Assembly (NCBI RefSeq): GCF_002222055.1
Contig: NZ_MUGS01000004.1
Location: 186,001-250,000 of the forward strand
DNA: 64,000 bases
Direction of reading: 5' to 3'
Source: Flavobacterium araucananum
GTDB taxonomy: Bacteria; Bacteroidota; Bacteroidia; Flavobacteriales; Flavobacteriaceae
Below, in pieces: positions 49,122 to 62,674 of this stretch; within the stretch, counting starts at the first letter, position 1, and each line of letters starts with the position of its first letter. The notes beneath the pieces were generated by a model. That model saw nothing but the letters and a program-made list of their open reading frames with translations. It was not told the origin of the DNA and ran no database searches. The translations under genes were made by a program, and so were the position numbers.

Positions 49122-49643
49122 TTAGAATTCGGTTTCAGATAGTACCTTAATAGTAACTACTTTTTCAAAACGTCCGTGGTGACTAACAGAAACATCTTTT
49201 GCTATTTTTAAGGTAGAATTAGACAAGTAGGGAATACCATTTGGATCTTTAAAAATATCTTTTTTTTCAATTTCAATCACATCATCGAGCTGATTAAAAC
49301 ACACAACAGCGATGGTATGAATATGTTCCGGAGTAATAACGCTTTTTGTATGATAAACATTCTCACCACAAATAACGTGACCTGTACTCCAAGTATCCTT
49401 TTTTGAGATTATGGTACACGTTAGTTTTTTAGGGATATATTCCCTTATTTTAGTTTGTCGGTTATGGATTTTATAGGCGGCTTCTTTCATACTCCAAAGC
49501 AGCCACACCATAGTTTCGGTATCTGATGTTTCCGATATTAATAATTGTTCAGAAAGCGTAAAGAGCTTTTGGAGAAAACCTTTACGCCGCCAGTTGCTTT
49601 CGTTGCGGGATTGCAGGATATCGATGACATCATTGCCAATCAT
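49122..49643 (-). CDS. 4'-phosphopantetheinyl transferase, AcpS-like
   Basis: A 173-aa enzyme that loads the phosphopantetheine arm onto carrier proteins. MIGNDVIDILQ (metal-binding Asp), then WLLWSMKEAAYK with the Glu-Lys pair mark the family; the length suits single-domain AcpS-like members. Its start overlaps the acyl carrier protein gene by 4 bp, which implies that it activates that carrier. It is the last gene of the polyketide operon. A second transferase of the Sfp type occurs at 61916. Confidence 0.9.
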   Translation of the reverse strand: MIGNDVIDILQSRNESNWRRKGFLQKLFTLSEQLLISETSDTETMVWLLWSMKEAAYKIHNRQTKIREYIPKKLTCTIISKKDTWSTGHVICGENVYHTKSVITPEHIHTIAVVCFNQLDDVIEIEKKDIFKDPNGIPYLSNSTLKIAKDVSVSHHGRFEKVVTIKVLSETEF

Positions 49644-49894
49644 TTTGCTGCGAGCTTGGTTTCTATGATTTCTACCGCAGTCTTTACATCCAGCATTCGT
49701 TCCATATCTGTATTGTCAATTACAATATCAAATGCCTCTTCTATATCAAGTACAATATCTACCAAATTAGCCGAATTAATACTTAGATCGTTTATAAAAT
49801 CGGTGTTTTCGGTTAGGTTATCATACGCTTCGGTATTGGTTGTATAAGGCTTTATGATTACTTTTAGCTGGGCAATAAGTTCGTCTTTGTTCAT
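49640..49894 (-). CDS. Acyl carrier protein
   Basis: An 84-aa acidic helical protein. The attachment serine is Ser41 in INSANLVDIVLDIEEAF, aligning with the DSL motif of ACPs although Asp-Leu are replaced by Asn and Ala, a variation that suggests a dedicated partner set. It begins 1 bp after the ketosynthase gene and overlaps the phosphopantetheinyl transferase gene. It probably carries the acyl starter for the type III polyketide synthase. Confidence 0.9.
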   Translation of the reverse strand: MNKDELIAQLKVIIKPYTTNTEAYDNLTENTDFINDLSINSANLVDIVLDIEEAFDIVIDNTDMERMLDVKTAVEIIETKLAAK

Positions 49895-49895
49895 A

Positions 49896-51170
49896 TTAGT
49901 TTTCGAATTTTTTAAAAATTATACAGGCATTTACATCACCAAAACCAAAACTTGCTTTGGCAATTATTGTGAGATTTGTATGGATTGTTTTAAGCGGAAC
50001 TTTTGCGGGATCAATAAGTGCAGTAATTTCCGGATGCAGATCTTCGCAATTGCTATTGCCAAACAAAAAACCTTCATGAAGTTGCAAGACCGCAGCGACA
50101 CTTTCGATGCTTCCGGCAGCGCTAAGGCAATGTCCGGTCATACTTTTTAGAGAATTAATATACGGGAAATTATTTCCGCTTCTGTTCAGTGCTTTTGTCC
50201 AGTTTTCAATTTCCAGGCTGTCTTTTGTAGTTGCGGTAAGATGACCGTTTATGGCATCGATATCAGCTGCTGAAATTCCGGCACTTTTTATTGCAGTAGT
50301 AATGCATCGTTGTACAGCATCACTGTTTGGGGCAGTCATGCTTCCGGTTCCGCGTTGTCCGCCAGAATTTACAGCACCGCCCAATATTTCGGCATAAATT
50401 GTAGCACCTCGTTCCAGAGCACTCTCAAGTTCTTCGACCACCAAAGCTCCGGCACCGCTACCGGGGACAAAACCTGCTGCGGTTGCACTCATGGGGCGTG
50501 AACCTTGCTCTGGAGTATCATTATATTTTGCACTGCAAACACGAAGTGCATCAAAACCCGCCCAGATATAAGGGCCGCTATCTCCGGTACTTCCGGCAAG
50601 AATACGTTTTGCCTGTCCGGATTGTATGCGGTCATACGCCATAATAATAGCTTCGGTTCCGGTCGCGCAGGCAGATGAATTTGTCGTAACCTGATTTCCT
50701 AAACCCAATTTACCCCCCAGGTAGGCACTAATACCGCTGTTCATGGTTTGTGCCACAACGGTGCTGCCTAATCTTCGCACTTGCAATTCGTCTATTTTAT
50801 AAATGCTTTCGCGAAATTTATCGATTCCGGAAGTACCGGATCCAAAAATGGTTCCGCTGTCCCAATCCGGTTCGTGGTTTATTTCTATCGCTAATCCGGC
50901 ATTTTTCCAGGCTTCGATTCCGGCGATTACGCCATACAAAATTCCTGTACTGTTAAACCCGCGAAGCTCAAGCTCAGTGAAATACTGCGATTTTAATTCG
51001 TCAGATATTTGTGGCTGACCGGCAATCTGACACGAAAACTGTAACTTTTCCAGCTCAGCATCATGACGAATTCCCGAAATGCCGTTTTTTAGCGAATGCT
51101 TAAACGCAGGAATTCCAACCCCATTAGGAGCCGCTACGCCAAGACCTGTTATTACAACTCTCTTTTTCAT
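49896..51170 (-). CDS. Beta-ketoacyl-ACP synthase, KASII-like
   Basis: A 424-aa condensing enzyme. The Cys-His-His triad is Cys168 (NSSACATG), His310 (INGHLTATTKD) and His347 (SMTGHCLSAAG). It starts with VVITGLGVAAPNGVG. The gene overlaps the FabZ-like gene by 4 bp and precedes the ACP gene by 1 bp, so it belongs to one translation-coupled operon. It likely elongates a dedicated acyl chain that primes the type III synthase. Confidence 0.93.
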   Translation of the reverse strand: MKKRVVITGLGVAAPNGVGIPAFKHSLKNGISGIRHDAELEKLQFSCQIAGQPQISDELKSQYFTELELRGFNSTGILYGVIAGIEAWKNAGLAIEINHEPDWDSGTIFGSGTSGIDKFRESIYKIDELQVRRLGSTVVAQTMNSGISAYLGGKLGLGNQVTTNSSACATGTEAIIMAYDRIQSGQAKRILAGSTGDSGPYIWAGFDALRVCSAKYNDTPEQGSRPMSATAAGFVPGSGAGALVVEELESALERGATIYAEILGGAVNSGGQRGTGSMTAPNSDAVQRCITTAIKSAGISAADIDAINGHLTATTKDSLEIENWTKALNRSGNNFPYINSLKSMTGHCLSAAGSIESVAAVLQLHEGFLFGNSNCEDLHPEITALIDPAKVPLKTIHTNLTIIAKASFGFGDVNACIIFKKFEN

Positions 51171-51604
51171 AATTTTGTTGTGATCATGCCGGCTACAATG
51201 CCTTTGCAGACTTCTTTTCCAGCTTCATTTTTCATAACAACATCGCATTTAAGCTTGCCAAACCTGAAAAATATTTTTTGAGAAGTTACTGTAACTTTTT
51301 CATTAGGATAAACAGGTTTTAAAAATTGCATATCGGCAGATGTAAAAGCCACGACAGTATCTTTTTTCAAATTATCGTTGAGCAAATAAATACCAAGACA
51401 AACCATGCCAATCTGCGCCATAGTTTCGGTCAAAATAACACCCGGGGTAACAGGATTATTCTTAAAATGACCTTTATAAAAAGCAAGATCTTCATTGTAG
51501 GTATAAGTTCCGCTAATACCATTTTCATCAGCATGCAACAACTCGTCTACAAATAAAAAAGGCTTGCTGTAGGGTAACTGTGCAATAATGTCGTTTAATT
51601 CCAT
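51167..51604 (-). CDS. 3-hydroxyacyl-ACP dehydratase, FabZ-like hotdog
   Basis: A 145-aa hotdog enzyme. YSKPFLFVDEL, the catalytic GHFKNNPVTPGVILTETMAQ with His46 and Glu60 (spacing 14 as in FabZ), support the assignment. It lies between the type III polyketide synthase and the ketosynthase genes. No ketoreductase or enoyl reductase is seen in the operon, so these would come from the housekeeping fatty-acid system. Confidence 0.9.
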   Translation of the reverse strand: MELNDIIAQLPYSKPFLFVDELLHADENGISGTYTYNEDLAFYKGHFKNNPVTPGVILTETMAQIGMVCLGIYLLNDNLKKDTVVAFTSADMQFLKPVYPNEKVTVTSQKIFFRFGKLKCDVVMKNEAGKEVCKGIVAGMITTKL

Positions 51605-51622
51605 TGTTTTTTTATCTGATAA

Positions 51623-52675
51623 TTACCATTGCAATAAAACCCGTTGTGCCGAAAAGCCCGGACCAAAACTTAGCATTAATCCTTTTTCTCCAGCTGTTGG
51701 ATTTTGATCCATAATACGTTCTAAAACATATAATACAGTTGCACTCGACATGTTGCCGTATTGTTTAAGTACTGCTTTTGTATCATCTATATTTTTACCT
51801 AATCCTGAAAAAAGTGACTCGACTGTAGTAATGATTTTTTTTCCACCGGGATGAAATATCATGTAATCAATTGCTGCGATTTCGAGCTTATTTTTTTGAA
51901 GGAACGGATGTATAATATCTCCAAAATGAGAAGCAATCGTATCCGGAACTTCAATGTCTAATACCATTTGCAAACCGCTATTGGTGAGTTTAAACCCCAT
52001 CATGTGCTCAGCATCATAAAAATGATACATTTCTTCGGCTATGATTTCAGGGCCATAATCTTCATCATAAGAGGATAAAAGACAGCAAGCGGCTCCATCG
52101 CCAAAAATTGCTGCACTGACTATATTGGGCATCGAAAAATCATCTAGCTGAAATGTTGCTGTAGGCGATTCTACCGCTATCACAGCAGCACGTTTGCCGG
52201 GATTTGCTTTCAGGAAATTTTTGGCATATATAATACCCGATATTCCGGCAGCACAGCCCATTTCGGTTACGGGCAAGCGAACGATATCCTGCCTTAATTT
52301 CATTTTATTAATAAGATATGCATCGAGCGACGGAATCATAATACCGGTACAACTTACCGTAATAATGTAATCGAGCGTTTGTGGTTCCCAACCTGCTTTA
52401 AGCAATGCTTTTTCTAACACTTGTTCGCCCAGAATAATTACTTCACGGCTGTAGATATCGTTTTTTTCTTCAAAGGATGTAGCTGTAAAAACTTCTGAGG
52501 GATCCATTATAGAGTACCGTTTATCAACAGCAGCACCTTCAAAAATCTTTTTTACTTTTTTTATAAAACGCTCGTCCTGTCCCTGTAGCCATCCGTCTAA
52601 CATTGGGAGAATATCTGCCGTAGTGCGCGAATATTTGGGGAGTTGCTTAGCAACAGTTATTATTTTTACACTCAT
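51623..52675 (-). CDS. Type III polyketide synthase
   Basis: A 350-aa chalcone-synthase-like enzyme. The full triad is visible: Cys141 (VTEMGCAAGISG), His275 (MIFHPGG) and Asn308 (YGNMSSATVL). The closing MLSFGPGFSAQRVLLQW is typical (GPGF). It condenses an acyl starter with malonyl-CoA to give alkylresorcinol or alkylpyrone products. It overlaps the methyltransferase gene by 4 bp and is followed by a FabZ-like gene after 18 bp. The product chemistry cannot be read from sequence. Confidence 0.95.
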   Translation of the reverse strand: MSVKIITVAKQLPKYSRTTADILPMLDGWLQGQDERFIKKVKKIFEGAAVDKRYSIMDPSEVFTATSFEEKNDIYSREVIILGEQVLEKALLKAGWEPQTLDYIITVSCTGIMIPSLDAYLINKMKLRQDIVRLPVTEMGCAAGISGIIYAKNFLKANPGKRAAVIAVESPTATFQLDDFSMPNIVSAAIFGDGAACCLLSSYDEDYGPEIIAEEMYHFYDAEHMMGFKLTNSGLQMVLDIEVPDTIASHFGDIIHPFLQKNKLEIAAIDYMIFHPGGKKIITTVESLFSGLGKNIDDTKAVLKQYGNMSSATVLYVLERIMDQNPTAGEKGLMLSFGPGFSAQRVLLQW

Positions 52676-53385
52676 TTTTTAGCAATTATCCATTGGTAAC
52701 GAAAAGCCCATTTCCAGTTTATGGTATAGTTTTTTAAATTCAGTTTTTTAGAGAAATCCTCTAATTCTTTTTTCTTAAATCCTCTTAAAATAGATACAAG
52801 TCCATCTTCACGCGTCATTTTGCTCAAATTAAAAACAACACAGACCATTTCGAAAAGGCGATAAGCTATTTTATTGCGATGCAAATCATTAATTATAATC
52901 CCCGTATGCGCATTGTTATTAAAGATAGTAATTATATTTAATACTTGTTCGTTGGTAAAATGATGTAATGTAAGCGTACACAAAACAATATCGTATGGCA
53001 TGGCAGCGAAATCAGGACTAAAAATATCGATACATTGATAGTCAATATTCGAAAAGTCTTTCGATAATGTTTTGGCATAATTGATCGTAAAAGCATTTGC
53101 ATCTATACCAATAAGTTTAAAATTCAGTTTATTTTCCAGACCGTATTTTGCCAGCATACGCAACATATCGCCGTTGCCACAGCCAATATCTGCAATTACG
53201 ATTGTTTTTGTAAGATCAGATTTTTTTAATAATATTTTTAACCCGTGCAGCGTAAGTTTGTTACCACCCAGTAGCTTATTGATACTGGCAATTTTGTCCA
53301 GAGCATCCTGTAATTCTTTTCCTTCCAGAAAAAAATCATCCATAATCTCCGTTTCCTGTGTTCTGTATTTAGTGGTTATTGCCAT
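52672..53385 (-). CDS. Class I SAM-dependent methyltransferase
   Basis: A 237-aa methyltransferase. Motif I is IADIGCGNGDMLRML (about 64-78), and motif II/post II is DIVLCTLTLHHFTNEQVL, typical of small-molecule C- or O-methyltransferases. In the analogous srsABC operon the second gene methylates the resorcinol ring. It lies between the flavoprotein and polyketide synthase genes with 0 and 4-bp junctions. Confidence 0.93.
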   Translation of the reverse strand: MAITTKYRTQETEIMDDFFLEGKELQDALDKIASINKLLGGNKLTLHGLKILLKKSDLTKTIVIADIGCGNGDMLRMLAKYGLENKLNFKLIGIDANAFTINYAKTLSKDFSNIDYQCIDIFSPDFAAMPYDIVLCTLTLHHFTNEQVLNIITIFNNNAHTGIIINDLHRNKIAYRLFEMVCVVFNLSKMTREDGLVSILRGFKKKELEDFSKKLNLKNYTINWKWAFRYQWIIAKK

Positions 53386-54522
53386 TTAGTTGATAACGAT
53401 TGTTTTACCGTGCGTTTGTTTAATTATTTTAGGGAGCAAAGCAGGTAATGCAACCGTAATGGCAACCAAGCCGGAAGTGATGGTTTTATTTTTTAAGATT
53501 TTTGCCAAAATTCTCCCCATACGTAAGCGTTTACCAAAATTCTTTTTCCATTGTTGTGCATAGTTTTTTTCCAGTGCTTCGCGGGATACTATTTTGCCCG
53601 AGTAGTAATCGAGTACCAACTCTGAAGCTATTTTTGCACTATGTATCGCCATTGCCATTCCGTTACCACACAAAGGGTGAATAAGTCCTGCTGTGTCACC
53701 AATCATTAGAATATGGTTTTCTACGGGCTTTTTTTTATCAAAAGAAACCTGGCTTATCGTGAGCGGATTATCAAAAAGTGGCGTGCTGTTCTCGAAAATA
53801 GTTTTGAGATGTTGGTTTTTGTAAAGCACATTACGCTGGTATTCTTCAATGTTTTTATAAGGCTTGAAAGTAGCATAATCTGCCAGATAACAAATGTTTA
53901 TAATATTGTTTTCGACTTTAGAAATGCCGCAATAACCACCTTTAAAATTATGAAGTGCCACAAGATCATCATCAAATGTGCCATTATAATGCCCTTTGAC
54001 AGCTAACCACGGTGATTTTTTAGAAAAAAAACTCCGCGATAAAACCTGATCGATATTAGAGCGTTTACCAAAAGCGCCCAACACTATTTTGGCAGATAAA
54101 AACTCGTTTGGGGTTGTTATTGTAAAAGTATCATCACTAAAAAAAACATCAGTTACAGTTTCATTAATGACGATACAACCGTTTGTTAATGCTTTTTGGT
54201 ATAAAAAATGATCCAGTTTGTACCTGCTTATCCCAAAACCCCCTAACGGTAGATTTGCCAGAGCCGTTTTGCCCTTGTTTGTCGAAAATTCAAATTTGGA
54301 TATATGGGTAGGATGTAAGCCTGAAATATCAATGTCCAGCCATTTAAGATAAGGCAGGATCTCGTTCGAAACATATTCGCCACAGACTTTATGTCGGGGA
54401 AAGCTTGATTTTTCGATTAATGTTACCGTTAATCCTTTCTGAGATAAGTGTATAGCACCCGTTAATCCAGCCAGACCACCGCCAATAATAACTACATCTG
54501 AGTTTGTTTTCATACTAAGCAA
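53386..54522 (-). CDS. FAD-dependent oxidoreductase (geranylgeranyl-reductase-like monooxygenase)
   Basis: A 378-aa flavoprotein. The dinucleotide fold VVIIGGGLAGLTGAIHL (about 10-26) is followed by PRHKVCGEYVSNEILPYL, a motif of the geranylgeranyl-reductase/flavin monooxygenase group, and ILMIGDTAGLIHPLCGNGMAMAIHS (about 271-295). The alternative ATG three codons later would also fit. It is the first gene of the operon; the neighbouring methyltransferase begins directly at its stop. By analogy with SrsC it would hydroxylate the phenolic lipid to a quinol or quinone. Confidence 0.92.
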   Translation of the reverse strand: MLSMKTNSDVVIIGGGLAGLTGAIHLSQKGLTVTLIEKSSFPRHKVCGEYVSNEILPYLKWLDIDISGLHPTHISKFEFSTNKGKTALANLPLGGFGISRYKLDHFLYQKALTNGCIVINETVTDVFFSDDTFTITTPNEFLSAKIVLGAFGKRSNIDQVLSRSFFSKKSPWLAVKGHYNGTFDDDLVALHNFKGGYCGISKVENNIINICYLADYATFKPYKNIEEYQRNVLYKNQHLKTIFENSTPLFDNPLTISQVSFDKKKPVENHILMIGDTAGLIHPLCGNGMAMAIHSAKIASELVLDYYSGKIVSREALEKNYAQQWKKNFGKRLRMGRILAKILKNKTITSGLVAITVALPALLPKIIKQTHGKTIVIN

Positions 54523-54814: not shown

Positions 54815-54937
54815 ATTCTAATGTAGCGCTAAAAATTTAGTTTTAAATTGCGCAAATTATAAAACGGTAAAAATAGTTTTGGTCAAAACAGGATTTTTAG
54901 TGCTTTTATAGTTACTGTAACCAATTGTTTTTTAGTG

Positions 54938-55342
54938 ATGCTGAACAAAATTAAAAATAGTTTTTTATGCAAATGCCTTCAGGTGTTACTAATTGGCTAC
55001 TTTTTATTGAGCAGTATTAATATCTCCGGCACGATAGGCCGAATCCTGAATAATCGTACAGAAGTACATTCTGTAAAAGGAATGGCTTGCGATTTCCTGA
55101 AAAAAATATTCAAGTGCGACGCAATTCCGGAAGAACTTGATGACTACAAAACAAAAGACAGTAAAACGACAAAACTGGCAAAAGGAACTCCCTTACTGGA
55201 TTATTTAGTACCACTGGATGCATCAGTTCCGGGATTGTATTTTGAACTCGAAACTAAAAGTAAAAACTACATCAGTAACCCAATCTTCTTTTTTGGGTTT
55301 CATGGCAAAATTCATTTGCGACCTCCTCAATTTATAGTATAA
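54938..55342 (+). CDS. Small membrane-anchored or exported protein of unknown function
   Basis: I do not recognise this 134-aa protein. An N-terminal hydrophobic segment (CLQVLLIGYFLLSSINISGTIG, about 14-34) is followed by a soluble acidic and basic domain with a Cys pair (MACDFLKKIFKCDAIP) and a C-terminus ending HLRPPQFIV. The frame may start at the GTG one codon earlier. It is the first gene of the exporter operon, so it might be an accessory component or a small exported factor. Confidence 0.8.
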   Translation: MLNKIKNSFLCKCLQVLLIGYFLLSSINISGTIGRILNNRTEVHSVKGMACDFLKKIFKCDAIPEELDDYKTKDSKTTKLAKGTPLLDYLVPLDASVPGLYFELETKSKNYISNPIFFFGFHGKIHLRPPQFIV

Positions 55343-55442
55343 ATACTTATTTTTTTGTGGATTAGAAGAAATTCTATTCTGCCGGATAGGGCTTTGCCGT
55401 ATCTAAAATCTATTTATTCATCTTGTATTTATATATAAATTC

Positions 55443-57098
55443 ATGACACCATTAAAACGCTTTTTTAATTTACTTGCGCTGGATAAGCGCGATGTATATC
55501 AAATTATATTTTATGCCGCTTTTGCCGGCCTTGTCAATCTTTCTCTCCCATTGGGAATTCAGGCGATTATTAATTTTATCCAGAGCGGGCAGCTTAGTGT
55601 TTCCTGGATTGTTCTGGTTTTTCTGGTTACTGTAGGAGTTGGTTTTGGCGGAGTTCTCACTATTTTGCAATTAAGAATTGTAGAAAACCTTCAGCAACGA
55701 ATTTTTGTTCGTTCCTCATTTGAGTTTGCATACAGAATGCCGCTGATCAAGTTCAAAGAACTATACTCTGAATATGCTCCTGAAAAAGCCAACCGTTTTT
55801 TTGATACACTTATGGTTCAAAAAGGGACGGCAAAACTTCTGTTAGACTTTTGCGCTGCTTTTTTGCAGGTTGGTCTCGGGATTATACTATTGGTTTTATA
55901 CCATTCGTTTTTTACTGTAATTGGTCTTTTGTTTATCGTTATTTTATATGTCATTTTTAAATTTTCGTACAAAGACGGTCTCGAAACAAGCCTTAACGAA
56001 TCAAAGTTTAAATATAAAGTTGCAGCATGGATTCAGGAAATTGCCCGCAATCGCGAAAGTTTCCGCAAAAAAGGAAGCTTTGAATATGCATTAGACCGAA
56101 ACGATGGTTATGTAAGCGAATATGTCAATTATCGGGAGAAACATTTTCTGGTAATGAAAAAGCAATACATACAACTTACTATTTTCAAAGTGCTGGTTAC
56201 AGCTGCCTTATTGTCGATTGGTGGTTTTCTGGTAATTCATCATCAAATGAATATCGGGCAGTTTGTAGCAGCCGAAATCGTGATTGTATTGCTTATAAAT
56301 TCTGTCGAAAAAATAATCTTCGGGCTTGAATCTTTTTATGATGTTCTTACCTCTGTCGAAAAAATTGGTCAGATTACTGATCTGGAAATTTCATGTGTTC
56401 CTAAAACATCTGAGATAACAGAGACAGGTATTAATATCGAAACAGAAAGCATCGCTTACAATTATCCGGGGTATAATAAAAAGTCGCTTAAAAATATCAA
56501 TCTGAAAATCGCTCAGGGCGAAAAAATATTGGTAAGAGGAACAAATGGTGCCGGAAAAAGTACCCTATTGCGTTTGCTGTCCGGTTTGCTTGAGCCTGAG
56601 AGTGGCGCCATGTATGTAACCGACAATTATATGAACCGTCTTGACGAGGATGCCTACAGAGCTCAAGGAGGTACTTTCCTGCAAGGTGATACCCTTTTTG
56701 CCGGAACAATTAGAGAAAATGTTCTTTTTGGAAACAGTGCCATAAACAGCGATGATCTCAAATGGGCTCTTGATAATGTTTGTCTAACGCCTTATATCAA
56801 AACATTCCCTAACGGACTTGAAAATCAGGTTCATCCCGGTGGCAGTGAACTATCTGCATCCGATGTACAGAAAATTTTGCTTGCCCGAAGCATCGTTCAC
56901 AAACCTAATATATTGTTTCTTGAAGATCCTGTTGATAAAATGGATGAACTGACTTCTGGTAAAATAGTCGATTTTTTACTCTCTGAACAAAATAACTGGA
57001 CGGTGGTTGTAACTTCTAAAAGTGACATCTGGAAAAGCAAATGCGACCGTATGATAACGATCGATGACGGAAAAATTATTAACGACATAAAGCTTTAA
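55443..57098 (+). CDS. ABC transporter (HlyB-like) with degenerate nucleotide-binding domain
   Basis: A 551-aa membrane-spanning ABC half-transporter without a peptidase domain: membrane helices about 20-40, 55-75, 140-172 and 245-290, then the ATPase. Walker A GTNGAGKST (366-374) and Q-loop Gln414 are present, but the signature reads LSASD instead of LSGGQ (470-474), Walker B ends ED instead of DE (494-495) and the H-loop His is replaced (VVVTSKSD, 521-527). Activity as an ATPase is therefore doubtful or altered. It overlaps no gene but is followed after 2 bp by hlyD. Confidence 0.92.
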   Translation: MTPLKRFFNLLALDKRDVYQIIFYAAFAGLVNLSLPLGIQAIINFIQSGQLSVSWIVLVFLVTVGVGFGGVLTILQLRIVENLQQRIFVRSSFEFAYRMPLIKFKELYSEYAPEKANRFFDTLMVQKGTAKLLLDFCAAFLQVGLGIILLVLYHSFFTVIGLLFIVILYVIFKFSYKDGLETSLNESKFKYKVAAWIQEIARNRESFRKKGSFEYALDRNDGYVSEYVNYREKHFLVMKKQYIQLTIFKVLVTAALLSIGGFLVIHHQMNIGQFVAAEIVIVLLINSVEKIIFGLESFYDVLTSVEKIGQITDLEISCVPKTSEITETGINIETESIAYNYPGYNKKSLKNINLKIAQGEKILVRGTNGAGKSTLLRLLSGLLEPESGAMYVTDNYMNRLDEDAYRAQGGTFLQGDTLFAGTIRENVLFGNSAINSDDLKWALDNVCLTPYIKTFPNGLENQVHPGGSELSASDVQKILLARSIVHKPNILFLEDPVDKMDELTSGKIVDFLLSEQNNWTVVVTSKSDIWKSKCDRMITIDDGKIINDIKL

Positions 57099-57100
57099 TC

Positions 57101-58453
57101 ATGCTCAATATATCCAAAGATAACAACATACTTATAACTCCGGGAAAATATGCTTCGATAACGAGTGTTGCCCGAAGACCACACTATAAAATTCTAAATA
57201 AGATAATTGTTGGTTTTTTAGTGTTTGCTATTGCATGCCTTTTTCTTCCGTGGACTCAAAATATTTCCGGAAGTGGTTCTGTGACTACTTTAAAACCCGA
57301 CCAAAGACCACAAACGGTTCATAATGCCATTGCAGGAAGGATCGAAAAATGGTTTGTAAAAGAAGGTGATTATGTAAAAAAAGGAGATACGATTCTTTTT
57401 ATTTCCGAAATAAAAGAAGATTATTTTGATCCCAATCTGGTTAAAAATACCAAAGAGCAGGTCGATGCAAAAAAAATGGCATTAGAATCCTATGGCGATA
57501 AAGTGAGTTCTCTTGATACTCAGGCACAATCTCTGGGTACAGAGCGACAATTGAAACTGCAACAGGCTCAAAATAAAATAAGACAGGCCCATCTAAAAAT
57601 TAAGAGCGACAGCATGGATCTCGTTGCAGTAAGAACGCAGCTTAGAATTGCGCAAACACAATTTGCCCGTTCGACTACGCTCAACAAAGAGGGTTTGAAA
57701 CCTCTGACAGATGTAGAGCAAAAAAGGCTAAAACTACAAGAATCCGAAGCTTATATTATTACGCAGGAAAACAAACTTTTGAGCAGTAAAAATGAACTCA
57801 TCAATGCCAAAGTAGAGATAAATCGTATTACAGCAGAGTATGCTGAGAAAATTTCTAAATCCAGAAGCGATAAATTTACTGCCTTAAGCACGCAATATGA
57901 TACAGAAGCACAGGTCAATAAACTGCAAAATCAGTATGTAAATTACAGCATCAGGAACGGTTTGTATTATATTACAGCTCCTCAAAGCGGTTATGTAAAC
58001 CGTGCTTTACTGGCAGGTCTTGGCGAAACAATCAAAGAGGGAACTCCGGTAATAAGCATTATGCCATCGAGTTATGATATTGCAGTAGAAACTTATGTAA
58101 ATCCTATCGATTTGCCTTTGGTACATCGTGGTGCCAAAGTGCGTGTTTGGTTTGACGGATGGCCAAGAATTGTGTTTTCTGGCTGGCCGGGATTATCCTA
58201 CGGAACTTTTGGCGGAAGGGTAGTAGCAATCGAAAATTTTATAAGTGCCAATGGAAAATACAGAGTGCTTATCGCGCCGGATGGCAAAGATCATAAATGG
58301 CCTAAAGAACTTAGTATTGGTGCCGGTGCACAAAGTATTGCCTTGCTGGAAACGGTTTCTGTAGGGTATGAAATATGGCGTAACTTAAACGGTTTTCCTC
58401 CCAATTATTATAAATCAGATGAAAAGGAAGCTAAAGGAAAGGAGAAAAAATAA
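57101..58453 (+). CDS. HlyD-family membrane fusion protein
   Basis: A 450-aa periplasmic adaptor. One helix (about 33-50) precedes the biotinyl/lipoyl half motif (VHNAIAGRIEKWFVKEGDYVKKGDTILFI, about 70-98), a coiled-coil of about 110-265 (KLQQAQNKIRQAHLKIK) and the second lipoyl half (ITAPQSGYVNRALLAGLGETIKEG). It bridges the inner-membrane ABC protein and the TolC-type channel. Neighbours on both sides are the two other parts of this system. Confidence 0.94.
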   Translation: MLNISKDNNILITPGKYASITSVARRPHYKILNKIIVGFLVFAIACLFLPWTQNISGSGSVTTLKPDQRPQTVHNAIAGRIEKWFVKEGDYVKKGDTILFISEIKEDYFDPNLVKNTKEQVDAKKMALESYGDKVSSLDTQAQSLGTERQLKLQQAQNKIRQAHLKIKSDSMDLVAVRTQLRIAQTQFARSTTLNKEGLKPLTDVEQKRLKLQESEAYIITQENKLLSSKNELINAKVEINRITAEYAEKISKSRSDKFTALSTQYDTEAQVNKLQNQYVNYSIRNGLYYITAPQSGYVNRALLAGLGETIKEGTPVISIMPSSYDIAVETYVNPIDLPLVHRGAKVRVWFDGWPRIVFSGWPGLSYGTFGGRVVAIENFISANGKYRVLIAPDGKDHKWPKELSIGAGAQSIALLETVSVGYEIWRNLNGFPPNYYKSDEKEAKGKEKK

Positions 58454-58454
58454 A

Positions 58455-59852
58455 ATGAGAAATAGTATAAAATTATTTTCTTTTTTATTTCTATTCGGCT
58501 TTTTTAGTGTTTACAGTCAGGATTTTAATAAAGAAGAACTAAGTTATAGTGAGTTTTTGGGTTATGTAAAAAAATACCATCCGCTGGTTAAACAAGCCAA
58601 TCTTGAAGTCAGTACGGCACAGGCTAAACTGATGGTGGCACGCGGAGGATTTGATCCAAAAATTGAGGTAGATTACAATAAAAAAGAGTTTAAAGGCACA
58701 GAGTATTATTCGCTGCTTAACAGTAGTTTTAAAATTCCGACCTGGTATGGTGTCGAGATAAAAGCGGGTTTTGATGCGACCGAGGGACAATATTATAACC
58801 CTCAAAATCGTACGCCGGATGCCGGATTAACGTCTCTTGGTATTAGTGTTGCTTTAGGACAAGGGATGTTTATAAACCAGCGTATGGCTGATGTAAGAGA
58901 AGGAAAATTGCAGCTAAAACTAAGTGATGCACAACGTAAACTAAGAGCAATCGAGGTTTTGTATAAAGCAAGCGAAGCTTATTTTGAGTGGAGAAAAAGT
59001 TTTAACGAAGCCGAATTGTACAAGCGTTATTTAGGGTTTGCGAGTACCCGTTTTAAAGGAGTTAAAAAACTAATCGAAGTTGGTGACTCTCCCGCTATCG
59101 ATAGTGTCGAAGCCAGAATAACGGTACGCAACAGGGAATTGAATGTCGAAAACGGAAACCTGAAACTGACAAAGGCAAAACTGAATCTGTCTAATTATTT
59201 ATGGATCGAAAACGTACCGGTAGAAGTAGATGATACCGTAAAACCGGAGCTAAATTTAATGGATACTCTCGAAGAAACTCTCAAAACATCTGCTATGATG
59301 GTCAGTGTCGAAACTCTCGAGGCACATCCTAAAATACAGGCTTTAGAAACAAAACTGTCTATGCTGGAAATCAACAGGCAGCTTAAAGCAAATTTATTGC
59401 TGCCAAAGGTAAATGTGGGGTACAATTATATTTCTGAACCTGTTTATTTTGATTCTTTTAATACGGATGATTATAAGTTTAATATCGATTTTAGTATTCC
59501 GATTTTTTTGAGAAAAGAACGCGGAAATTTAAAGGTGGCAAAACTTAAAATTCAGGATTTAAAATTTGATATCGATCAGCAAAGACTGGAACTTAAAAAC
59601 AAAATAAAAGCACAACAAACAGAAATTGCCTCATTGAAAAGGCAAAAAAATGTAATAGACAATCTGGTCAAGGATTATCTTACCATGTTGAGTTCTGAAG
59701 AGAAGTTGTTTTCGTTTGGCGAAAGCTCTATATTTTTAATGAACTCGAGAGAGAATAATCTGGTGAGTGCCAAACTATCTCAAATTAGTATCGAGAATCA
59801 GTTTTATGTTTCAAACGCCGAATTGTATAAAATACTGGCAAATCCGGATTGA
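58455..59852 (+). CDS. TolC-family outer-membrane efflux protein
   Basis: A 465-aa outer-membrane channel; the ATG at 58455 gives a proper signal peptide (FLFLFGFFSVYSQ) and lies 1 bp after the hlyD stop, whereas a longer start at 58419 would overlap hlyD. Long helices (AKLMVARGGFDPKI, ASEAYFEWRKSFNEAELYKRY, RQLKANLLLPKVNVGY) match the two OEP repeats. It completes a type-I-like exporter. Confidence 0.93.
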   Translation: MRNSIKLFSFLFLFGFFSVYSQDFNKEELSYSEFLGYVKKYHPLVKQANLEVSTAQAKLMVARGGFDPKIEVDYNKKEFKGTEYYSLLNSSFKIPTWYGVEIKAGFDATEGQYYNPQNRTPDAGLTSLGISVALGQGMFINQRMADVREGKLQLKLSDAQRKLRAIEVLYKASEAYFEWRKSFNEAELYKRYLGFASTRFKGVKKLIEVGDSPAIDSVEARITVRNRELNVENGNLKLTKAKLNLSNYLWIENVPVEVDDTVKPELNLMDTLEETLKTSAMMVSVETLEAHPKIQALETKLSMLEINRQLKANLLLPKVNVGYNYISEPVYFDSFNTDDYKFNIDFSIPIFLRKERGNLKVAKLKIQDLKFDIDQQRLELKNKIKAQQTEIASLKRQKNVIDNLVKDYLTMLSSEEKLFSFGESSIFLMNSRENNLVSAKLSQISIENQFYVSNAELYKILANPD

Positions 59853-61931: not shown

Positions 61932-62674
61932 ATAACAGCCAGATAAAAATGTTCTGCAATACGAATGCTGAAACCGGAATGGGCTAAAAGGCAAAACGGA
62001 TTCATAAATCCTATTTCATCTACAGATAAATTGCTCAGGTCCGGTATTTCTTTGAGCTGCATGATCGAATTTCCTTTTGCTTTAATGTATGCTTCTTTTA
62101 TGGTCCAGTATTTATAAAAGAGGTAATAAACTTCATCGTCTTTTTTTGAAGTTATAAGGGCTGATTCTGTTGGCAAGAAGAAACTTGTGGCAATATTGTG
62201 AACCTGTTTATGGTTTGGCGAGACATTTTCGATATCGATACCAATTTCATTTTTTGTGCCAATGATACAGGCAAAATATCCGTTGGAATGGGATAGATTG
62301 AACGTAATCTTTTTTTTATTTTGATGTTCAGCCAGATGTGGTTTGCCATTTATGCCGTATACAAATTCTATATCGGCAGCAGGAATTTTTGTGTAAAGCG
62401 AAAGCAGATAGCGAAGTAATGATCGCGAATAAATGAAATTCCGGCGCTGTTTTTCGAACTTAAATTTTTGAGCTCTTTCTTTTTCCTCACTATTTAGATA
62501 ATCGATAAATTGATCTTCTGGTTCCTCTGGTTTTGCTATCCATAAATGCAGGTAATCGTCTGTATTTAAATTGCTGTTTTTGGGGTCAACCCAAAAGTCC
62601 TCAAGATTTGCCGTATTTTCTAAAATAGCGGGAATTTTATAATAGCTGATATTTTTGGAGGAAGAAAAAAACAT
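61916..62674 (-). CDS. 4'-phosphopantetheinyl transferase, Sfp type
   Basis: A 252-aa pseudo-dimeric transferase that activates carrier proteins of polyketide or nonribosomal systems. Signatures are GKPHLAE...FNLSHSNGYFACII, GIDIENV (metal-binding Asp and Glu) and YKYWTIKEAYIKAKG. Its ATG shares one base with the stop of the glycosyltransferase gene (TAATG), so both are coupled. No cognate carrier protein is visible within the window beyond the one at 49640, so its substrate probably lies in the flanking DNA. Confidence 0.93.
   Translation of the reverse strand: MFFSSSKNISYYKIPAILENTANLEDFWVDPKNSNLNTDDYLHLWIAKPEEPEDQFIDYLNSEEKERAQKFKFEKQRRNFIYSRSLLRYLLSLYTKIPAADIEFVYGINGKPHLAEHQNKKKITFNLSHSNGYFACIIGTKNEIGIDIENVSPNHKQVHNIATSFFLPTESALITSKKDDEVYYLFYKYWTIKEAYIKAKGNSIMQLKEIPDLSNLSVDEIGFMNPFCLLAHSGFSIRIAEHFYLAVIYFVQ

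Follow-up and report, generated by a model that had tools for sequence, protein, structure and literature searches.

A type III polyketide synthase operon with discrete fatty-acid enzymes is conserved in Flavobacterium and related genera

The 5.9-Mb genome of Flavobacterium araucananum encodes a compact set of seven genes that places a type III polyketide synthase (T3PKS) next to enzymes of fatty-acid synthesis. The set is located on a stretch of 64,000 nucleotides (contig NZ_MUGS01000004.1, positions 186,001 to 250,000; G000:C74:186001-250000), the whole of which is referred to here as the window. All seven reading frames are intact and are read from the minus strand in the order FAD-dependent oxidoreductase, methyltransferase (MT), T3PKS, dehydratase (DH), ketosynthase (KS), acyl carrier protein (ACP), and 4'-phosphopantetheinyl transferase (PPTase) (Table 1). 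The original prediction, made from the nucleotide sequence, had described a self-contained operon at positions 49122-54522 whose genes overlap or lie no more than 20 bp apart. The gene set is real: it is conserved among relatives and tightly packed, with gaps of 0, −4, 18, −4, 1, and −4 bases from the FAD gene to the PPTase gene, and it is under purifying selection (dN/dS 0.010-0.262 across the seven genes against five relatives, values that are rough because dS is high, 0.74-2.06). The term "self-contained" is too strong, since a ketoreductase, a malonyl transferase, and an initiating KS are all missing from the seven genes.

Table 1. Genes of the operon and the spacer between two of them, in the order of transcription (coordinates of the window).
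Feature	Position	Strand	Domains and remarks
FAD-dependent oxidoreductase, predicted ring hydroxylase	53386..54522	-	Lycopene_cycl, FAD_binding_3, and Trp_halogenase-type FAD domains (Pfam)
Class I S-adenosylmethionine-dependent methyltransferase (MT)	52672..53385	-	Methyltransf_25 (Pfam)
Type III polyketide synthase (T3PKS)	51623..52675	-	Chal_sti_synt_N and _C over cut-off; Cys141-His275-Asn308
T3PKS-DH spacer, 18 bases	51605..51622	-	Slot of the enoyl-ACP reductase gene in relatives
FabZ-like 3-hydroxyacyl-ACP dehydratase (DH)	51167..51604	-	FabA-like domain; His46 and Glu60
FabF/FabB-like ketosynthase (KS), own clade	49896..51170	-	ketoacyl-synt N and C; Cys168-His310-His347
Acyl carrier protein (ACP)	49640..49894	-	PP-binding; Asn40-Ser41-Ala42
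4'-Phosphopantetheinyl transferase (PPTase)	49122..49643	-	ACPS superfamily, 39.0 bits (cut-off 25)

All seven proteins score at or above the gathering cut-off of one or more fitting Pfam families, the ACP only barely (20.8 bits at a cut-off of 20.8). The MT scores below the cut-off of model PRK06202 (121.8 versus 243 bits) and the DH below those of the FabZ models, its matches in the PDB being of the FabZ type. The closest PDB structure of the T3PKS is that of Pks11 (4jao; E = 2.7e-47). The PPTase is one of seven ACPS-superfamily matches in the host genome; a second match within the window, at about 62021-62245 on the minus strand (G000:C74:248021-248245), lies near more PKS frames of the same contig. 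Judging from the sequence, the FAD gene more likely starts with the ATG at 54513 than with the listed TTG at 54522. Co-transcription of the seven genes is presumed only, because scans for promoters and terminators gave no more matches than shuffled sequences (sigma-70-like sites, 25 versus 25.6; terminators, 4 versus 5.5). The Bacteroidota-type promoter motif TTG-N15-25-TAnnTTTG does not occur between positions 54495 and 54960; the one TAnnTTTG there is at 54953, at a distance of 432 bases from the start codon.

The genes belong to a conserved operon family that is widespread in Flavobacterium and its relatives and whose product is uncharacterised. Profiles of the seven proteins and of an enoyl reductase were used to score 201 T3PKS loci, consisting of the window, the best 80 of 457 matching loci of relatives (a choice that skews this set to near kin), and 120 further genome stretches; matches weaker than 1e-25 (enoyl reductase), 1e-60 (KS), 1e-10 (MT), or 1e-20 (FAD) were ignored. 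A KS is present at 176 of these loci. Nearly all 176 keep the order FAD-MT-T3PKS-(enoyl reductase)-DH-KS-ACP, and 92 show the exact order of the window, PPTase included. The closest relatives at the locus are Flavobacterium species, whose T3PKSs are 91-93% identical. Locus L021, from F. johnsoniae CI04, has the operon as well. The Flavobacterium group referred to below comprises 89 KS-bearing loci: the window, 79 of the 80 best-match loci (among them one from Myroides and a few whose records name no more than the family, Flavobacteriaceae), and 9 further stretches from the same genus. Not every member of the host genus has the operon; 7 of its 24 genomes in a sample of the phylum lack a T3PKS match at 1e-40. 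Searches of open-licence literature turned up no description of this gene set or of a product for it, which is weak evidence of novelty because the search was limited to such papers.

The active sites are conserved throughout the family. Cys141, His275, and Asn308 of the T3PKS, Cys168, His310, and His347 of the KS, and His46 and Glu60 of the DH are each present at 176/176 KS-bearing loci. The catalytic residues named in the original prediction (Cys141 and Ser41) are found in the window, and the Asn-Ser-Ala site of the ACP, which had been taken to indicate a special set of partners, proves to be a signature of the family rather than a quirk of one genome, because it is nearly invariant (Asn40 at 174, Ser41 at 176, and Ala42 at 172 of 176 loci). 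Position 237 of the T3PKS, which aligns with an Asn in CylI, is Met at 172 and Ile at 4 of the 176 loci; the Phe265 site of chalcone synthase (CHS) is reported to be Gln or Asn in the CylI clade and Met in the clade of HidC, an enzyme predicted to use acyl-ACP and to form alkylresorcinols (PMC8086630). Position 228 is Phe at all 176 loci and aligns with a Trp of Pks11 and a Leu of CylI; Trp281 of ArsB has been linked to resorcinol formation (PMC6274091). The ring type was not deduced from Phe228, because Pks11 is named as a pyrone enzyme and no alignment with ArsB or ArsC stands behind the comparison.

What is new here is an eighth gene of the operon family, for an enoyl-ACP reductase (ENR), that is missing from the Flavobacterium group. 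This short-chain reductase gene of about 262 codons lies between those of the T3PKS and the DH and is present at 77 of the 176 KS-bearing loci, including those of most relatives outside Flavobacterium, and at 4 further loci whose KS is relocated or missing. In all six proteins tested, the top NCBIfam model is FabL (NF005975), with scores of 127.9-148.0 bits that remain under the curated cut-off of 328, so that the ENR is classed as FabL-like only. Its closest match in the PDB is 3oic, an NADPH-dependent enoyl-ACP reductase (FabL of Bacillus subtilis), and Ser154, Tyr164, and Lys171 (the Tyr-x6-Lys motif) are conserved at 77/77 loci. The gene is absent from every one of the 89 KS-bearing Flavobacterium-group loci, from two loci of another family (L120 and L121), and from eight scattered loci. 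No ortholog was found elsewhere in 18 reductase-less genomes (best other match 1.7e-26, 32% identity; a control genome, G579, gave 5.8e-175). One of the scattered loci (L282) preserves a remnant of 33 codons with 61% identity in the correct position, which indicates that the gene was lost there and not never gained; secondary loss has thus occurred in at least one lineage. The earliest branch within the T3PKS family, formed by four loci from another family, carries the ENR, and the state of this gene changes at least nine times on the T3PKS tree (FastTree; 18 Flavobacterium-group loci used, with L287, whose T3PKS frame is broken, and the contig-edge locus L042 omitted), or four times when counting starred branches only. 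By profile, L287 (G442) has two frames each for FAD and T3PKS, which may reflect a gene that is broken or duplicated. Repeat-rich inserts of 147-596 bases (including 40 bases of the DH gene) occupy the ENR slot at 15 of 80 Flavobacterium-group loci (L004:9062-9578, L016:9128-9409, and 13 others); L004 has three copies spaced by 180 bases, and similar sequence occurs elsewhere in L001, L069, L070, and L056.

The fatty-acid genes are tightly coupled to the T3PKS. Among 299 genomes drawn evenly from the host's family, a T3PKS ortholog (E ≤ 1e-100) is present in 103, after removal from an initial 104 of one genome (G366) whose match of 2e-47 fails this rule. A KS ortholog occurs in 101, all of which have the T3PKS; no genome has the KS alone, and 196 have neither. 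The T3PKS is found without a KS ortholog in two genomes, G430 and G584, the latter 76% complete. Stronger evidence than these counts comes from relocated genes: of four genomes with a KS-less T3PKS locus, three hold a KS ortholog elsewhere (65-67% identity), inside a DH-KS-ACP or DH-KS-ACP-PPTase block. Comparative genomics thus ties DH, KS, and ACP to the T3PKS far beyond mere adjacency.

Another possibility is that the T3PKS acts first and that its product is loaded onto the ACP and then processed by KS and DH. Gene order does not give the order of reactions, and T3PKS and ENR genes are adjacent in the absence of a KS at four loci; however, the operon has no loading enzyme, and the products of described type III systems leave as free pyrones or resorcinols (PMC6274091), which makes this sequence of events very unlikely.

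The fatty-acid set is not a general companion of type III synthases. At 20 distant T3PKS loci (27-38% identity), hand-picked from search matches, the KS, DH, and ACP of the family are absent throughout; 16 have the T3PKS alone and 4 have it with MT and FAD, and some distant loci (L104-L110) carry a homologous T3PKS-MT-FAD trio with 34-43% identity. In the T3PKS tree, the enzymes that occur with the fatty-acid set form a fully supported group that excludes the distant ones. Therefore, the trio is the more general theme, to which one T3PKS clade has added the fatty-acid set. At another locus (L125:6137-7069, minus strand), a UbiA-family prenyltransferase adjoins the T3PKS-MT-FAD trio of another family, which hints at prenylated relatives. 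In a different branch, the T3PKS adjoins a methyltransferase of the isoprenylcysteine type instead of class I (L127:4345-4836, minus strand, by Pfam; L128:4083-4574, minus strand, by eye; plasmid loci L338-L340). Plasmid-borne type III PKSs reach an identity of 33% at best; 3 of 221 plasmid records were inspected and show a methyltransferase of this type, and their annotated neighbours, listed in an incomplete gene table, include neither a KS nor an ACP.

The KS of the operon is not a FabF equivalog. It scores 270.5 bits with TIGR03150 (fabF), below the cut-off of 493.75, whereas two other KSs of the host pass with 597.3 and 550.5 bits. In a tree of 24 KSs, the 17 linked to a T3PKS are split (branch support 100/99) from the other seven, which include FabF copies and two KSs of flexirubin clusters; long branches and the small number of comparison sequences qualify this putative separate clade. 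These results bear on the alternative that the T3PKS uses ordinary fatty acyl-coenzyme A (acyl-CoA) and that DH, KS, and ACP make a second acyl group, destined for the membrane or to be joined later to the phenol. Many type III PKSs do take CoA starters, and flexirubin unites two such lines, its aryl-polyene acid being esterified to a dialkylresorcinol (PMC3992019); the host itself has a flexirubin-type cluster with FlxB over cut-off. By contrast, the conserved set has no acyltransferase or ligase gene, its KS falls outside the flexirubin KSs compared, and the DH-KS-ACP block accompanies the T3PKS in 101 of 103 genomes, so that we consider the alternative improbable. The flexirubin-type cluster of the host (G000:C73:13704-31837; L316, L317) contains several KS frames, and a further region (G000:C71:43815-89099), with 13 ketosynthase matches in frames of 1718-4340 codons, is a large modular PKS cluster.

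On balance, the operon probably encodes a dedicated type II fatty-acid set that loads an acyl-ACP to prime the T3PKS, with the FAD enzyme and the MT decorating the resulting alkyl- or alkenylresorcinol, perhaps to a quinone. The PPTase would activate the ACP at Ser41, and KS and DH, together with a housekeeping ketoreductase and malonyl transferase, would assemble or lengthen an acyl chain on this ACP, a process that the FabL-like ENR would join in most relatives outside Flavobacterium. The acyl-ACP would pass its chain to Cys141 of the T3PKS, which would add malonyl units and cyclise the product to an alkyl- or alkenylresorcinol (a pyrone seems less likely). The FAD enzyme may then hydroxylate and the MT methylate the ring, in a presumed order and at presumed sites, with a possible cellular role of the product as a membrane quinone. 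A hand-over from an ACP is known from other systems: ArsB and ArsC receive fatty acids directly from the ACP domain of ArsA, and GCS and SCO7671 accept hexanoyl-ACP (PMC6274091). The ars system, which includes its own PPTase, ArsD (PMC4824345), is an already noted case of a fatty-acid synthase that feeds a type III PKS (PMC3098273). Outside Flavobacterium, the operon is preceded, on the same strand, by genes for a lipocalin-like lipoprotein (47 loci) and an OmpA-family protein (46 loci), each confirmed by Pfam in one example; they are compatible with a lipid destined for the outer membrane but are not evidence for one.

Several points weigh against this scheme. The co-occurrence of T3PKS and KS is by itself weak evidence, because operons are acquired and lost as units; the relocated DH-KS-ACP blocks number just three cases, and G430 retains T3PKS and ENR but no KS ortholog. 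A PPTase neighbour was found by profile at only 123 of the 176 KS-bearing loci, and a ketoreductase at none of the loci examined, by the profiles used. The top NCBIfam model of the FAD protein is a reductase family, not a hydroxylase (geranylgeranyl reductase, 116.8 bits, under the cut-off of 158.8); its 43 matches in the PDB are weak and mixed (halogenases, monooxygenases, and reductases), and no definite role was assigned to a comparable oxidoreductase of Gimesia maris (PMC10896814). Moreover, the authors of the HidC study doubt that the Phe265 site governs substrate specificity (PMC8086630).

The original prediction had proposed an unsaturated or otherwise modified starter. As a general rule, an unsaturated starter does not hold, because the ENR of most relatives outside Flavobacterium should give a saturated tail; it is a possibility for the reductase-less members, the window included, where an enoyl chain may be delivered or a housekeeping enoyl reductase may equally have taken over. 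The latter case leads to a plausible rival, which we rate somewhat below an even chance: the fatty-acid set does no more than bring chains from the primary pool to a single length, by elongation or exchange, the ENR is redundant, and the tail is saturated also in Flavobacterium. The repeated changes of ENR state are consistent with a dispensable gene, and no further gene was visibly lost alongside it; on the other hand, neutral loss does not require absence from 89 of 89 Flavobacterium-group loci, and a housekeeping enoyl reductase was not identified in the host. Model NF005717 yields no host protein over cut-off but also none in 14 controls, and a motif scan of 16 host frames gives one ambiguous Tyr-x6-Lys that fits Tyr-x3-Lys as well. 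A bolder version of the acyl-ACP scheme seems rather unlikely: having dropped the ENR, Flavobacterium would prime its T3PKS with enoyl- or polyenyl-ACP and form a resorcinol with a conjugated alkenyl or polyene tail; hydroxylation and methylation would turn this into a coloured membrane quinone with redox activity, and related genera would make the saturated form. If so, tail saturation would be set by the presence or absence of a single gene of the operon. Overall, the observation behind the original prediction is confirmed and its interpretation partly supported; the central idea, a proposed hand-over of an acyl chain from the ACP to the T3PKS, is well backed at the level of comparative genomics.

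On the plus strand of the window (54935-59852), a divergent small frame is followed by genes of an ABC transporter, a HlyD-like, and a TolC-like protein. This exporter (55443-59852) was rejected as part of the cluster since the 80 best-match loci of relatives do not keep it next to the operon.

Type III PKS clusters make up 9% of Flavobacteriaceae clusters in an antiSMASH survey and are among the commonest (PMC7440613), and one was reported in every Aquimarina genome examined (PMC9323603); no product assigned to such clusters of Flavobacteriaceae was found in the open-licence literature. The operon would account for many of them by one scheme, a discrete and separable acyl-ACP donor. If the scheme is correct, it would assign a class of lipids to a large bacterial family of soils and waters, provide a small model for the docking of ACP and type III PKS, in which a single ACP of 84 residues bears the unusual and conserved Asn-Ser-Ala site, and show, as a natural experiment, what losing an enoyl reductase does to a lipid tail.

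Among known systems, the closest in concept is arsABCD of Azotobacter vinelandii, which produces alkylresorcinols and alkylpyrones and likewise encodes type III PKSs together with fatty-acid machinery and a PPTase. The starter is delivered from an ACP there, as the transfer from ACP to Cys141 proposed here would do. However, ArsA is a large type I fatty acid synthase, whereas KS, DH, ACP, and, in relatives, ENR are separate type II-like proteins in the present family; because they are separate frames, the operon works like arsABCD without being a member. The accounts of arsABCD cited here name no tailoring methyltransferase or FAD gene, both of which are present in the window.

Tailoring genes are shared with other systems, and the prediction that T3PKS, MT, and flavoprotein repeat the logic of srs is borne out at the level of gene content, that of hidABC and pkqABC included; the likeness to srs was judged by logic. 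The hidABC operons of cyanobacteria and three-gene operons of Planctomycetota also combine MT, FAD oxidoreductase, and type III PKS and are described as producing alkylresorcinols (PMC8086630, PMC10896814). Their order is MT-FAD-T3PKS instead of FAD-MT-T3PKS, and the cited descriptions, on which the comparison is based in place of sequence, mention no dedicated KS, DH, ACP, or PPTase. Likened by description as well, pkqABC of Mycobacterium smegmatis and srs of Streptomyces griseus share the set of type III PKS, MT, and FAD enzyme but are described as three-gene sets without fatty-acid enzymes, the Streptomyces pathway using CoA units; polyketide quinones of mycobacteria and Streptomyces are reported to be electron carriers.

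The aryl polyene and flexirubin clusters of Bacteroidota likewise employ a dedicated type II KS, DH, and ACP to make a specialised acyl chain. By contrast, the present operon has a type III PKS at its core, and neither a ketoreductase nor aryl-starter genes nor a KS of the flexirubin clade are among its seven genes. By analogy with these systems, the operon is best read as following the logic of arsABCD with discrete enzymes, combined with tailoring of the hid, srs, and pkq type.

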